DNA of 64,000 nucleotides. Source: Nocardia arthritidis. GTDB lineage: Bacteria; Actinomycetota; Actinomycetes; Mycobacteriales; Mycobacteriaceae. Position numbers and translations under genes: made by a program. Under the pieces are notes generated by a model. That model made no database searches, was not told the origin of the DNA, and saw nothing but the letters and a program-made list of their open reading frames with translations. Within the stretch, counting starts at the first letter, position 1, and each line of letters opens with the position of its first letter. Below are positions 19,508 through 29,170 of the stretch, piece after piece. Location: NCBI RefSeq assembly GCF_011801145.1, contig NZ_CP046172.1, positions 7,316,001 through 7,380,000 of the forward strand, written 5' to 3'.

Positions 19508-19719
19508 GTTCCACAGCGTAATCGGACGCCGGTCCGAGTCGTCACCGCTACCGCCGGTTCGGTTCCGAACGCCCGATCCCGGCCGTACCGCCACGCCGCG
19601 CACCCGGCGGCTCACAGCTCGCCGAACCACCGGAATTCCGCTGTGCCACGGACCTTTTCACGGCTGGCAAGGGCCGCGCGAGGCCGCCGCGCTCACACTT
19701 GTCGGTGGGAAGGATGGCA

Positions 19720-21177
19720 ATGTACGAATACGAGTCTTTGAACAAGCAATTCATCGATGGCGAATGGGTTTCCGGGACGGGTACCACCGTCCTCGTGGAC
19801 ACCAACCCGTACGACGACACGGTGCTCACCAAATTGCAGGGCGCGACGACGGCCGATGTCGACCGGGCATACGCAGCCGCCGCGGCGGCCCAAACGGCCT
19901 GGGCGGCAACGAATCCCTTCGAGCGGCGGCTGGTGCTGGAGAACGTGGTGCGCGAGGTCGAGACGCACCGGGCCGATATCGCGCGGCTGATCACCGAGGA
20001 GACCGGCGGCACCGTCATCAAGACCGCGGTGGAGATCGACCTGGCGCTGCAGATGTTGCGGGAGGCGGTGACGCTTCCGGTCCGGATGGAGGGCCGCATC
20101 ATGCCGTCACCGCTGCCGGACCGGGAGAACCTGGTGTACCGGGAGCCGGTCGGCGTCGTTTCGGTGATCGGGCCGTTCAACTTCCCGTTCCTGCTGGCGC
20201 TGAAGTCGGTCGCGCCCGCGCTGGCCGTCGGTAACGCGGTCGTGGTCAAACCGCACGAGCAGACCCCGATCCTGGGCGGGACCATCCTGGCGGAGATCTT
20301 CCGGCGGGCCGGTCTGCCCGACGGCGTGCTCAACGTGATCGTTGCCGATATCGCCGAACTGGGCGATTCGTTCATCACCCACCCCATCCCCCGGGTCATC
20401 TCCTTCACCGGTTCGACGACGGTGGGCGCGCACATCGGCGAGGTCGCCGCCCGGCACTTCAAGCGTTCGGTGCTCGAACTGGGCGGCAACAGCGCATTGA
20501 TCGTGCTCGAGGACGCCGATCTGGAATTGGCCGTCGACGCGGCGGTGTTCAGCAGGTTCACCCACCAGGGTCAGATCTGTCTGTCGGCAAATCGGCTGGT
20601 GGTCGCCAGGCCGGTATACGACCGGTTCGTCGAGGGTTATCTCCGCAAGGTCGAATCGCTGCCGGTCGGGGATCCAAGGGATCCGGCCACCATCGTCGGA
20701 CCGCTCATCAGCGACCGCCAGGCCGATACCGTCGAATCGCTCATCGAACAGGCCATCGCCGGTAACGCGACCGCCCTGGTGCGCGGCGTCCGCAGCGGCC
20801 GCGTGCTCGCACCGACGGTCCTGGCCGAGGTGACCACCGATATGCCGATCTCCCGCGAGGAACTGTTCGGCCCGGTGGCCCTCGTCATGGCTGCCGGCGA
20901 CGAGGACGACGCGATCCGCATCGCGAACGCGACCCCCTTCGGCTTGAGCGGCGCCGTGCATTCCCGCGATATCGACCGCGCCATCAGGGTGGCTCGCCGG
21001 ATCGACAGCGGGATGGTCCATGTCAACGACGGCACCATCCACGACGAACCGAATGTGCCCTTCGGCGGCGAGAAGTCCTCCGGGGTCGGCAGGCTCAACG
21101 GCGAGTCGTCGCTGGCGGAATTCACCACCCTCAAATGGATCTCGGTCAACCGCGGTCGTCGTCAATTCCCTTACTGA
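19720..21177 (+). CDS. Aldehyde dehydrogenase family protein
   Basis: 485 residues from the ATG at 19720, preceded by GGGAAGG. Motifs seen: GPFNFPFLLALKSVAPALA (substrate/cofactor Asn), FTGSTTVG (cofactor loop), LELGGNSALIVL (general base Glu) and HQGQICLSANR (catalytic Cys). NAD(P)-dependent oxidation of an aldehyde is expected. The closest impression is benzaldehyde/vanillin-type dehydrogenases, but the substrate is uncertain. A canonical terminator follows 16 bases after the stop. Confidence 0.92.
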   Translation: MYEYESLNKQFIDGEWVSGTGTTVLVDTNPYDDTVLTKLQGATTADVDRAYAAAAAAQTAWAATNPFERRLVLENVVREVETHRADIARLITEETGGTVIKTAVEIDLALQMLREAVTLPVRMEGRIMPSPLPDRENLVYREPVGVVSVIGPFNFPFLLALKSVAPALAVGNAVVVKPHEQTPILGGTILAEIFRRAGLPDGVLNVIVADIAELGDSFITHPIPRVISFTGSTTVGAHIGEVAARHFKRSVLELGGNSALIVLEDADLELAVDAAVFSRFTHQGQICLSANRLVVARPVYDRFVEGYLRKVESLPVGDPRDPATIVGPLISDRQADTVESLIEQAIAGNATALVRGVRSGRVLAPTVLAEVTTDMPISREELFGPVALVMAAGDEDDAIRIANATPFGLSGAVHSRDIDRAIRVARRIDSGMVHVNDGTIHDEPNVPFGGEKSSGVGRLNGESSLAEFTTLKWISVNRGRRQFPY

Positions 21178-21192
21178 TAACGCATTTTCACG

Positions 21193-21236
21193 GCCGAGAG
21201 CGCGGCACCGTCATGGTGTCGCGCTCTCGGCTTTTT
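21193..21236 (+). terminator. Intrinsic terminator after aldehyde dehydrogenase gene
   Basis: Arms GCCGAGAGCGCGGCACC and GGTGTCGCGCTCTCGGC (one G-T pair) with a short loop are followed by TTTTT. A near-identical hairpin occurs at 24783, so the two bracket the cassette at 21435-24779. Confidence 0.9.
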
Positions 21237-21434
21237 GAATTAGCCAACTGGATGCTTTTGGGACATCCGAGTAGTCGAGTCGCGTGTCCATATCACTCAC
21301 CGGACCGGTCGGTTCATCCAGCGGACCAGCACCAAACGATGCGTATACGGCTACGCGTGTCACTGCTGATATCCACGGCGACCGTTGTGGATCGGGTTTG
21401 CCAGAAGGGGCGACCCGACGTCGAAGGAGGAAAT

Positions 21435-23039
21435 ATGGCCGACATCGCAGGACTGGGCGCGCTGCAAAAAGCGCTCCTGTCCGCAATTGATCAAGTGGGA
21501 GCGGTGATTTCGGATTCACTGCAGAACAATCCGGGAACGGTGTTCGTCTACCAGAAGCCGGGGCTCGCCGTGGATCCCAAGCGGTACCTGAACCCGTGGC
21601 TGCCGGAAGGGGATGTCTACGCGCTGATGGACAGTACCGGCCACACCGTGCCGGGCGCCGGATCGACGCCGGGTAAGCCGGGCACACCCGATCCGAATCT
21701 GCAGGCGTCCATTGCCGCCGCGGCGGCGACGGCGGATCTGGTCGACGACCATCTCGCGCTCGCTTCCCCCTTCGCGGCGAAGTCACTCGGCAGCGCGTCC
21801 ACGGCCTGGGGGGTCGTGCAGCAGGCGATCAGCGGCGATCCGCCGACGGCGCCGTCGAAGGATGTGCAGGACAAGATCAATATGGCCAGGAACCTGCTGT
21901 ATGTGAACGGCAGGGTCGGCAGGCCCACCCAGGGATACCAGGACTATCAATTCGCGGTGGACGCGCTGGCGAAGGCACGGAAGGCGAAGTCCGACGCCTT
22001 CTACAAGGCGATGGCCGATCCGGCGCTGGGGCAGGCGTGGCCGATGGACAGCGCGTCCTACGACAACGACATCCACCGGGCCGAAACCGATATGGCGGCC
22101 GCCGACCACGCCGATTCGAGCATGGCGTACTCGGAGGCAGCCGATTTCCTGTACTCGCAGGGCACCAGCATCATCGATGCCGCGGTTCGCGGGGTCAAGG
22201 ATCGCTGGTCCACCTACGGCGAGCTCGGGACCGCACGCGGCACCTTTCCGTTGACCATTCTCGATCCGCCGTCCTGGTGTGATGTGACCGATGACAGCTT
22301 CGGCGCGATGCAGCTCTCGGTCAGCAATTTCAGTTATGAGAGCGCCTCGGCGAACGGGTTCAGCGACAACTCGACGTCGTATTACAATGACTCCGGATCC
22401 AGCAACGGCGGTGGCGTCGGCATCGTCTGGGGACCGTTCAGTGCGACCGCCGGTCTCGACACCACCAGCGCCGACTACTACAACTCACAGTCGGCATCGC
22501 AGTCATCGGGCGGCGTGAACTGGGATCGTTCCCAGAGCGCATCGATCACCGGCGAGTACTTCGTGGTGAATGTCAAGCGGCCGTGGCTGTTCGAGGAGAT
22601 CTTCCGGATCAACAGCGGCTGGTACGTCAAGGACCAGCCGAAGAACTACATCAGCGATGGCACCAATAGCGCTGCCAACAACGGTAATTGGATGCCATCG
22701 CTGATCGTGCAGCTGCTCGTGGCCCGCAACCTGACCATCACCTGCGATGACTGGGGCGATGTCGGCACGCACTTCGCCAACGCGGCACAGTCGTCGAGCA
22801 GCAGCAGCCATACGGATTCGACGAGCTTCGCCGGTTCGGTCGGCATCTTCGGACTCGGCGGCACCTACAACCACAACGATTGGAACGCCAACGGCCAGTA
22901 TTTCCAGCACGACGATGGACAGCAGAGCTGGAGCTATCAGCAGTCGGGCAGCGGCGGCACGCTCGTCGTGCACGGCACCCAGATCGTCGGCTGGTTGGTG
23001 CGCGTCGTGCCCGCCTCCCCGCCGAAGGCGAGCAACTGA
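21435..23039 (+). CDS. Unrecognised beta-rich protein A of a three-gene cassette
   Basis: 534 residues; the ATG at 21435 has a perfect AAGGAGG site at 21424-21430. No signal peptide or membrane helix. Residues 1-280 are mainly helical with Ala-rich segments. From about residue 300 the protein becomes Ser/Asn/Tyr-rich with alternating polar and hydrophobic residues (around 311-370 and 445-510), flanking a core with VVNVKRPWLFEEIF (near 375) and PSLIVQLLVARNLTI (near 420), and ending in TQIVGWLVRVVP. The same core order occurs in the next gene, so they look like paralogous folds. The alternating strands could form amphipathic hairpins, but pore formation is inference. I do not recognise the family. 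Confidence 0.8.
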   Translation: MADIAGLGALQKALLSAIDQVGAVISDSLQNNPGTVFVYQKPGLAVDPKRYLNPWLPEGDVYALMDSTGHTVPGAGSTPGKPGTPDPNLQASIAAAAATADLVDDHLALASPFAAKSLGSASTAWGVVQQAISGDPPTAPSKDVQDKINMARNLLYVNGRVGRPTQGYQDYQFAVDALAKARKAKSDAFYKAMADPALGQAWPMDSASYDNDIHRAETDMAAADHADSSMAYSEAADFLYSQGTSIIDAAVRGVKDRWSTYGELGTARGTFPLTILDPPSWCDVTDDSFGAMQLSVSNFSYESASANGFSDNSTSYYNDSGSSNGGGVGIVWGPFSATAGLDTTSADYYNSQSASQSSGGVNWDRSQSASITGEYFVVNVKRPWLFEEIFRINSGWYVKDQPKNYISDGTNSAANNGNWMPSLIVQLLVARNLTITCDDWGDVGTHFANAAQSSSSSSHTDSTSFAGSVGIFGLGGTYNHNDWNANGQYFQHDDGQQSWSYQQSGSGGTLVVHGTQIVGWLVRVVPASPPKASN

Positions 23040-24115
23040 TGGCCCACAGCATCAACGAAATCGGCCAGCTGCTGGTGTCGGATCTGGCCACGGCGTACGG
23101 CATCGCCAATGCCCCCGACAAGGCCATGGCCTTCTTCCAGGGCGTTCCGGTGGACGACAAGATCGTCCAGAGCGGCAGGATCAACCCACTGCGGTTGGGG
23201 CAGTGGCTGGCTCTTTTCGACACCACGCCGATCCTGACCCCGGCGACGGCGGCCATCACGCCGCCTCCGGGCGGGGAGAGCGCGACGAGCTGGTATTCGG
23301 CGATCATCACCGGCGCACAGCCGCTCAATGCGACAAATCTTGCGGGACAGCAGTTCTCGACTCGATTGAATCACGACAAATCGCTGTTCGGACAGGTCAG
23401 CGTCGATGAGCCGCTGACCTGCGAGCCACCGGATTGGCCGATGCCGGGTACGCCGTATTGGCAGACCTGGAATTCGGCATCGCACACCACCACGACGACC
23501 GCACCGGGCAAAAATCTTGTGGCGGGTAGTGATTGGGCGATTCGCACCACGGAACCGGCCGCGACCGGCGGTGGTGGCGGCAGCAGCGGCGGTAGCGGTG
23601 AAATGCTGATGTCGGTCGCAGGCGGACCGCCGATCATCTGGAATCCCGGTCCTGGACACAACTTCGTCAACGACGACGGGCTGCTGCACGACGTCGGCCA
23701 GCCAACGACCGGCACCACGACGGACACCACAACGACGACGACCTCGGATATCACCATCCAGTTCGACTACATGCTGGTGAGTCTCACGCGGCAGGTCGCG
23801 GGCACGACCTGGTGGGATGACGTGCTGCTGAACGATCCCGCGTGGTATCTGCCCGGCTATCAGGCGGGCAAGTTGCTCGGGAGAGGGTCGGGCGGCGCGG
23901 TGCCCGTCCTGCCGTACGCACTGGTGCTCGCCAGGAACGCCGTCGTCACCGGCACCTGGGACAACCAGCAGAACACGACCCGCGTTGGCCCGCTTCGGGT
24001 TTCGGTCACCACCAGCGGCGACTCGGTCGCGGTCGGCTGGGCGGGCATGCAGGCCATCGCGCTGCTCGCCGATGTCCTGCCCGATCTGCCGCCCGAGGAC
24101 GATCCGGCCTCATGA
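23039..24115 (+). CDS. Unrecognised beta-rich protein B, related to protein A
   Basis: 358 residues; its ATG overlaps the previous stop (TGATG), so translation is coupled. It has no signal peptide. Thr-rich and Gly/Ser-rich low-complexity segments (near residues 150, 177-187 and 225-237) precede a core with ITIQFDYMLVSLTRQ (238), WWDDVLLNDPAWYLPG, VPVLPYALVLARNAVVTG (289) and a C-terminal GWAGMQAIALLADVLPDLPP. This matches the order of core segments in protein A (basic VKRPW or LTRQ strand, Trp-rich turn, LxxARNxxxT strand, hydrophobic strand ending VxPxxPP). The function is unknown; a hetero-oligomer of A and B is a reasonable guess. Confidence 0.78.
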   Translation: MAHSINEIGQLLVSDLATAYGIANAPDKAMAFFQGVPVDDKIVQSGRINPLRLGQWLALFDTTPILTPATAAITPPPGGESATSWYSAIITGAQPLNATNLAGQQFSTRLNHDKSLFGQVSVDEPLTCEPPDWPMPGTPYWQTWNSASHTTTTTAPGKNLVAGSDWAIRTTEPAATGGGGGSSGGSGEMLMSVAGGPPIIWNPGPGHNFVNDDGLLHDVGQPTTGTTTDTTTTTTSDITIQFDYMLVSLTRQVAGTTWWDDVLLNDPAWYLPGYQAGKLLGRGSGGAVPVLPYALVLARNAVVTGTWDNQQNTTRVGPLRVSVTTSGDSVAVGWAGMQAIALLADVLPDLPPEDDPAS

Positions 24116-24155
24116 ACGAAATCGACTGCTACACAATAAGAAGGAGGTGCCGGTG

Positions 24156-24779
24156 ATGACCGTCGAATTCGGCGACCACGCCTGGTACTGGAACGGCAAT
24201 GTCTCGTCCACCAAGAACATCCCACGCGCGCAATGGTTTCCGGGTAGCAATCCGAGCGACCCGACCGACTATCAGGGCCACGGCGTGGAGATCTACAACT
24301 ACGTGTTCTACGACAACAACGTGATCCTGCGGGGGCAGCCGCATCTGCGCCACGGCACCGGCAGCTACGCCTGGCTGAACAACAATCCGGGCAATCTCAC
24401 CGGCGTCGCGGGCGGCCCCGACTACGGCCAATATCCGGGAAAGTTCAACTGGCACAACTTCTTGATCTTCCCGGACTACGACACCGGATTTCTGGCCATC
24501 GGGTTGTTCCTGCAGAGCCCGGCCTATATCGACCTGTCCATCCAGGCGGCCTTCCGGAAATATGCCCCCGCCTCGGACGGTAACGATCCGGACACCTACG
24601 CCGCCGATGTCGCCGCGGCGGCGGGCGTCGACGTGTCCACCCCGATCAGCGACCTCACCGCCGAACAGATGTCGCTGCTGCAGAACAAGATCGCCCAGAT
24701 CGAGGGCGCCGTGCCCGGCGACACCCTCGCCTACGATTCGGACGACCTGCCGCAGGCGATCAAGGACCTGATCGCCTGA
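24156..24779 (+). CDS. Protein with phage-lysozyme-like NNPGN domain
   Basis: 207 residues; ATG at 24156 with AAGGAGG at 24141-24147. The central part carries WLNNNPGNLTG (near residue 74), FLIFPDYDTGFLAI (near 104), a helix, KYAPASDGNDPDTYAADV and a final SDLTAEQMSLLQNKIAQIEG. That layout matches the structural-protein/lysozyme-like domain of phage baseplates (NNPGN, then G-x-A, then WAPP-x-DN-x-Y). Those domains bind or cut peptidoglycan or glycans. There is no signal peptide. It is third in the cassette with proteins A and B and is followed by a terminator. Confidence 0.75.
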   Translation: MTVEFGDHAWYWNGNVSSTKNIPRAQWFPGSNPSDPTDYQGHGVEIYNYVFYDNNVILRGQPHLRHGTGSYAWLNNNPGNLTGVAGGPDYGQYPGKFNWHNFLIFPDYDTGFLAIGLFLQSPAYIDLSIQAAFRKYAPASDGNDPDTYAADVAAAAGVDVSTPISDLTAEQMSLLQNKIAQIEGAVPGDTLAYDSDDLPQAIKDLIA

Positions 24780-24782
24780 ACA

Positions 24783-24826
24783 GCCGAGAGCGCGACACCG
24801 CTGTGGTGTCGCGCTCTCGACCTTTG
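24783..24826 (+). terminator. Terminator after the three-gene cassette
   Basis: Arms GCCGAGAGCGCGACACC and GGTGTCGCGCTCTCGA, then CCTTTGTT. It is almost the same sequence as the hairpin at 21193-21236. It also lies at the 3' end of the convergent membrane gene and may serve both. Confidence 0.8.
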
Positions 24827-28455: not shown

Positions 28456-28708
28456 CGCCAGCCGTCCCCCGTGTCGGGTGTCGAACCGTCTGGGGACTCG
28501 GCGGAGACCGATCGAGTGTGATTGGCGGACAGCACAATCAATCATTCCGGGCGGGTATTCGCTTGGTGCAGAACATAACTGGGGATTAAACGCCCCCGTG
28601 GCGCGGATAAAGTTACAGAGCGCCCGGGGACGGCTCCGGTGCCCGGCGTGATGAGGACGACCCGCCGAGTGGTCTGAATCCCTTTCCGACACAAGAGGGA
28701 GTTGTGTG

Positions 28709-29170
28709 ATGGCCGAGTATCTCCGGACCGCCGAACAGCGGGCCACCATGCCCAAGAACCGGTTCATGAACCTGGCCGTCGCTTCGGCGTCGGCGCTCGC
28801 CGGCACGATCATGCTGGCGGGTCCTGCCACGGCGGACCCCACCCTCACCCTCACGGTCGACAGCAACCAGCATCTCAACGCCGACGGCACTGAAAAAATC
28901 ACAGGCACCTATACCTGCACCGCTGTCGGCCGGGTCAACAGCACCAGGAACAGCTACCTGAGACAAGGTGAGGTCCAGCCGATCGTGCCCGCGAGTAAGG
29001 CGATGGTTACCTGCGACGGCGCCGCGCACCCCTACACCACCGACATCCCGGCGCCGGAGACTTACCCATTCCAGCCCGGCCCCGCCACATTCAATATCAC
29101 CTGGGATTTGTACAGCGCGGATGGGAGCACCGAGGTCAGACTCACCGATCTCCCCGTCACCCTGCAATAG
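28709..29170 (+). CDS. Small secreted protein of unknown function
   Basis: 153 residues from the ATG at 28709 after AGAGGGAG; the signal peptide itself begins at an internal ATG (28748, MPKNRFMNLAVASASALAG) and ends at GPATADP. The mature domain is about 110 residues of beta-type sequence with two Cys (YTCTAVG and MVTCDG) likely forming a disulfide, and resembles Ig-like exported proteins of Nocardia. No function assigned. Confidence 0.75.
   Translation: MAEYLRTAEQRATMPKNRFMNLAVASASALAGTIMLAGPATADPTLTLTVDSNQHLNADGTEKITGTYTCTAVGRVNSTRNSYLRQGEVQPIVPASKAMVTCDGAAHPYTTDIPAPETYPFQPGPATFNITWDLYSADGSTEVRLTDLPVTLQ

Follow-up and report, generated by a model that had tools for sequence, protein, structure and literature searches.

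A conserved pair of related bacterial proteins, possibly pore-forming, often encoded beside cell wall-directed partners

In the window analysed here, a stretch of 64,000 nucleotides (positions 7316001-7380000) of the 10.0 Mb single-contig genome of Nocardia arthritidis, three genes that we call A, B and C form a compact cassette. Judged by profile comparison, A and B belong to one family; the two genes stay together in distant relatives, and proteins or domains directed at the cell wall recur beside them. We regard it as plausible, a little short of probable, that the cassette is a lysis device made of a pore and a wall cutter. The pore-forming role of the A-B family, which we rate as nearly but not quite probable, is mainly supported by a coincidence: the partners resemble those of bacterial gasdermins (bGSDM), and a fold search that was blind to the neighbours ranked a gasdermin first.

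A three-gene cassette between matching terminators

The cassette and its borders consist of the following features.
21192..21232 (+), left terminator of the cassette, ending the upstream gene: hairpin with a 19-pair stem, then a T run
21424..21431 (+), ribosome-binding site of A, AAGGAGGA (sequence reading)
21435..23039 (+), protein A, 534 aa, candidate pore former (translation)
22335..22523 (+), insert 1 of A (core residues 36-98), between strands b1 and b2 (predicted local distance difference test, pLDDT, <50 in the core model)
22797..22922 (+), insert 2 of A (core residues 190-231), between strands b3 and b4 (pLDDT <50 in the core model)
23039..24115 (+), protein B, 358 aa, candidate partner or adaptor (translation)
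24141..24149 (+), ribosome-binding site of C, AAGGAGGTG (sequence reading)
24156..24779 (+), protein C, 207 aa, NNPGN lysozyme-like (translation, PHROG matches)
24784..24820 (+), right terminator of the cassette: hairpin with a 16-pair stem at 24785-24819

All three genes lie on the + strand, in 3.6 kb between the two terminators. A is preceded by AAGGAGGAAAT and C by AAGGAGGTGCCGGTG, both read as AAGGAGG-type ribosome-binding sites, and the start of B overlaps the stop of A by one base (TGATG). The first-pass annotation had described such a cassette, with strong AAGGAGG sites or overlapping codons and a terminator on either side, and this layout was confirmed. Both hairpins were found and are near-identical; one 37-base pattern covers 21194-21230 and 24784-24820 and has no third match in the window (0.00 expected). 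These near-identical framing terminators may be the ends of a moved segment.

Protein C contains the NNPGN motif and, as the first-pass annotation had proposed for its domain, has ties to phages. Its best PHROG match is a tape-measure family (phrog_2276, 7.2e-9), followed by an endolysin family (phrog_873, 1.5e-7) and an unnamed family (0.0076); no Pfam family matches at E≤1. It shares 28.6% identity with a portion of a phage endolysin (E 1e-4), and one relative was found in viral contigs (33% over residues 65-168). C is lysozyme-like and a predicted peptidoglycan cutter. A weak match to PADLOC PDC-M02A (E 0.0072) was also seen at residues 146-177.

A and B are related to each other

A has no Pfam or NCBIfam match at E≤1, and neither A nor B reaches a curated cut-off in these collections, in agreement with the earlier description of their family as unrecognised, and PADLOC returned nothing for either. 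Among A/B relatives, curated cut-offs are reached solely for inserted or fused domains. A consists of a helical N-terminal part (about residues 1-265) and a beta core (about 266-534) that holds two Ser/Gly-rich inserts; its strand order in the AlphaFold model is b1-insert-b2-b3-insert-b4. B in the window is a paralogue of this beta core without the two long inserts. Plain BLASTP found no relation between A and B (best E 0.25). Profile comparison (hhalign) gave 94% and 1.3e-7 with shallow alignments, 98.2% and 2.7e-14 with 106 A rows and 10 B rows, and 99.3% and 7.7e-21 with divergent rows. Among the blocks that align are the basic 'R-PW' strand, the strand with 'VARN' and the final strand with its VxPxxPP end, which bears out the shared core order noticed at first. 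In distant pairs the similarity extends into the N-terminal half: A of G362 (locus L042) is 28.8% identical to its own B over A residues 1-431, and A of G435 is 22.6% identical to B of G435 (L013) over residues 5-407 and 23.8% identical to B of G585 (L030) over residues 4-407. In 13 of 18 B members, mostly of the Streptomyces type, a biotin/lipoyl-type domain (PF00364) occurs at about the place of A's first insert. By eye, the lipoyl attachment lysine is apparently kept in some Streptomyces-type B proteins (P0033-P0045) and lost in others.

A, B and C look cytoplasmic. Their maximum Kyte-Doolittle hydropathy over 19 residues is 1.25, 1.57 and 1.35, respectively, and hydropathy, with no dedicated signal-peptide program applied, reveals no signal peptide or membrane helix in any of them, as the first reading of the sequence had it. 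That reading had also seen alternating, possibly amphipathic strands, a feature that the analysis bears out in part. Averaged over the family, with nine segments tested, alternation is present in the insert-1 region (p 0.007) and not in the insert-2 region (p 0.59), and in single sequences it is no higher than in shuffles.

The A-B pair recurs with wall-directed neighbours

We read 14 loci, a small part of the known relatives: the window, L002-L005 from a genome-contig scan, the plasmid locus L011, and eight loci from whole genomes (L012, L013, L026, L027, L029, L030, L031 and L042). In 13 of them, B follows A immediately and on the same strand. The exception, L031, encodes a single protein of 959 aa; its C-terminal part is similar to the core of A, and it matched no A or B query in the pair comparison. 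A wall-directed domain is present in B or at most two genes away in 7/14 loci, a plain count without a random-locus control. This component is C in the window, a neighbour with Hemopexin (4.8e-34) and Amidase_2 (1.5e-5; 25.7 bits against a cut-off of 26) in L012, a separate LysM gene (1.5e-8) 69 bases after B in L013, and PG_binding_1 fused to B (2.3e-15) in L027. In L029 (G689), LysM is fused to B (7.1e-9) and the N-terminal part of the upstream gene product matches PG-binding domains (2.9e-12). L030 has GH25 (1e-8) downstream and a hemopexin-repeat gene directly upstream, and L003 has Muramidase (1.1e-53) with PG_binding_1 in the second gene upstream. No wall-directed domain was recognised in L002, L004, L005 (contig edge), L011, L026 (short contig), L031 and L042, where neighbours were partly profile-scanned and otherwise read by eye. 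A survey for conserved trios of A, B and a lysozyme had been suggested; the loci read here uphold the pair and not the third protein as such, since the place of C is taken elsewhere by unrelated wall enzymes or wall-binding domains. Of the envelope-directed assembly suggested at first, the glycan-binding or cutting component is present in half of the loci, with none recognised in the other half.

A protease was recognised in 2/14 loci: Trypsin_2 (3.6e-6) in the gene just before A, on A's strand, in L042, and Peptidase_C14 (6.2e-21) on the opposite strand, three genes upstream, in L003. None was recognised by eye near the window cassette, and no immunity gene was recognised by eye. A MACPF gene (L002:5280-6839, -, 4.6e-6) lies two genes upstream of a Streptomyces A-B pair on the other strand.

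Several smaller observations concern the same loci. A small gene of about 150-180 aa just before A in Streptomyces (L002:7350-7895) and Neorhizobium (L011:9305-9754) looks alike by eye and has no Pfam family above cut-off. Ahead of the Neorhizobium cassette, a 525-aa protein (L011:7652-9229) with weak Trans_reg_C, BTAD and TPR matches is a possible regulator. Hemopexin repeats are joined to the amidase at L012:13594-14778 and, by eye only, to a lysozyme-like domain at L030:11136-12458. B and the LysM part are encoded separately in G435 (L013:5849-7564, -) and by a single gene in G689, and B of G435 may be split. In the window, the gene upstream of the cassette (19699-21177) is aldehyde dehydrogenase-like by eye, no phage gene was recognised by eye among the open reading frames at 15-32 kb, and a small protein encoded at 28706-29170 (+), with an apparent signal peptide, resembles a secreted protease inhibitor by eye.

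Weak fold matches to gasdermins

The PDB entry ranked first for both models is the bacterial gasdermin 7n52, a weak match and not a significant one. For the A core model, ranks 1-3 are gasdermin chains and rank 4 is a perforin-like protein, all of them weak. None of the gasdermin chains was matched by sequence profile, and 0/20 A-family members match MACPF or CDC models (PF01823 or related) at E≤1. The pore activity that the first-pass annotation had put forward is compatible with the predicted strand order and with these top-ranked, weak matches.

A rare and patchy distribution

Among named organisms, Nocardia supplies the closest relatives of A and B (85-86% identity). A protein search found 26 relatives of A, itself included, and a search with the divergent alignment found 169, query sequences included (120 of them listed). 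With its own genome included, A was present in 2/150 genomes of the genus, 3/401 of the family, 7/246 of the class, 2/396 of an even phylum sample with one profile and 3/396 with another, and 1/35 of the order of G641, namely G641 itself; these counts are lower bounds, as few candidates per genome were scored in most searches, and the samples overlap. Outside the phylum, A occurs in a Caulobacteraceae metagenome-assembled genome (MAG), Collimonas, an Eremiobacterota MAG and a Neorhizobium plasmid, and relatives' names add others. Because the occurrence is rare and patchy, horizontal spread of A-B is suggested.

A possible lysis device and its alternatives

The genes themselves, the kinship of A with B, their conserved order, the wall-directed neighbours that recur and the two proteases nearby are observed; pore formation, hetero-assembly, the activity of C, the direction of attack and a trigger are inferred. 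A would be a cytoplasmic gasdermin-like or perforin-like protein whose copies assemble as a ring in the inner membrane, with the two Ser/Gly-rich inserts becoming membrane-crossing beta-hairpins. B would assemble with A and, in some relatives, carry a wall-binding module. C would pass through the pore, or be released by it, and then cut peptidoglycan. In phage holin-endolysin cassettes, a membrane-breaching component adjoins a wall-cutting enzyme that has no signal peptide; the net effect here would be similar, and the producing cell would most likely be killed on a trigger.

We favour attack on the producer because all three proteins look cytoplasmic and proteases lie near two relatives. It is rather unlikely that the cassette is instead an antibacterial weapon, a pore-lysozyme complex that would be released by lysis or another route and attack other bacteria, with B or the extra domain docking on exposed peptidoglycan. 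B does carry LysM or PG_binding_1 in two relatives, hemopexin repeats stand beside two A-B pairs, and bacterial bicomponent long/short pore toxins are described as antibacterial in the parts of PMC11952106 consulted. However, the three proteins lack a recognisable secretion signal, no immunity gene was recognised by eye, and internal activation better fits the two protease neighbours; the competitor-directed reading suggested earlier thus gained no direct support. The protease neighbours, together with published bGSDM operons, point at least as much to regulated self-lysis.

A complex without a pore, in which A-B binds or remodels glycans at the wall, the inserts are flexible linkers and C trims peptidoglycan, would agree with the predicted disorder of the inserts, the weak alternation and the lipoyl-like and PG-binding domains inserted in or fused to B. 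We consider it unlikely, as A, B and C are cytoplasmic by sequence, protease and MACPF genes are neighbours at three loci, and pore formers are the top-ranked fold matches. Phage tails often carry NNPGN, LysM and PG-binding domains, and the best PHROG match of C, its relative in a viral contig and a weak Phage_tail_X match (E 0.03) at the same place as LysM would suit a role as payload or component of an injection system, either contractile or phage-tail-like. This is very unlikely, however: by eye, the flanks that were read showed no sheath, tube or baseplate gene, a pattern-based scan found no A in viral contigs, phage records gave no match to a related A, and the viral-structure search yielded nothing below E 2.5.

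Read cautiously, A-B is a conserved pair without a curated Pfam match of its own and with an informative neighbourhood pattern. More tentatively, and with more doubt than confidence, the pair may represent a new bacterial two-component gasdermin-like pore family, in which one paralogue bears the membrane hairpins and the other, having lost them, serves as wall adaptor. Activating proteases or peptidoglycan hydrolases of unrelated kinds would repeatedly have joined it, making a cellular counterpart of the holin-endolysin device that is sporadic in at least three phyla. The pair is not described in the top-ranked titles and abstracts on bacterial gasdermins, MACPF proteins, CDC-like bicomponent toxins and fungal gasdermin-like proteins. 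If the lysis-device proposal is right, the gasdermin/perforin pore formers, whose members are tied to cell death in animals, fungi and bacteria, would gain a branch that is paired and coupled to the wall, and there would be a directly testable case of a bacterium breaching membrane and wall together.

Comparison with known systems

Bacterial gasdermins (PDB 7n50, 7n51, 7n52) are the top-ranked though weak fold match to the A core, and their chains (240-263 aa) are similar in length to this core (269 aa). Protease, lysozyme and amidase neighbours are as in the bGSDM operons described in excerpts of PMC9612521. However, A possesses an additional N-terminal half that is helical, is paired with a paralogue and carries long Ser/Gly-rich inserts, and few A-B loci have a recognised protease. 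According to the same excerpts, the N-terminal cysteine is palmitoylated in the majority of bacterial gasdermins (PMC9612521), whereas the first Cys in A is residue 282. In bGSDM a protease removes an autoinhibitory C-terminal peptide of about 20 residues; in A, the last predicted strand is followed by about 10 residues. We do not file A-B as a gasdermin, since A has no N-terminal cysteine and its fold match is weak.

The cassette would also be similar to phage holin-endolysin pairs, in which a membrane-breaching component stands beside a wall-cutting enzyme without a signal peptide (PMC9612521, in part). A and B differ from these in being large and without predicted membrane helices, and in having no phage genes nearby that were recognised by eye. 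As far as the consulted parts of PMC11952106 describe them, two segments of the core sheet of MACPF/CDC proteins unfold to become membrane hairpins; the predicted strand order of A fits this, and no fold match is significant. CDCL long/short pairs are precedent for two related proteins of which one is longer; the shared domains of CDCL partners are very alike, whereas B is without the long inserts. A two-protein pore has a precedent in fungal RCD-1-1 and RCD-1-2, products of alleles of one locus, likened to A-B by description and not by sequence: according to the part of PMC11760362 consulted, these two related proteins pair as heterodimers, which in turn build a single gasdermin-like pore.
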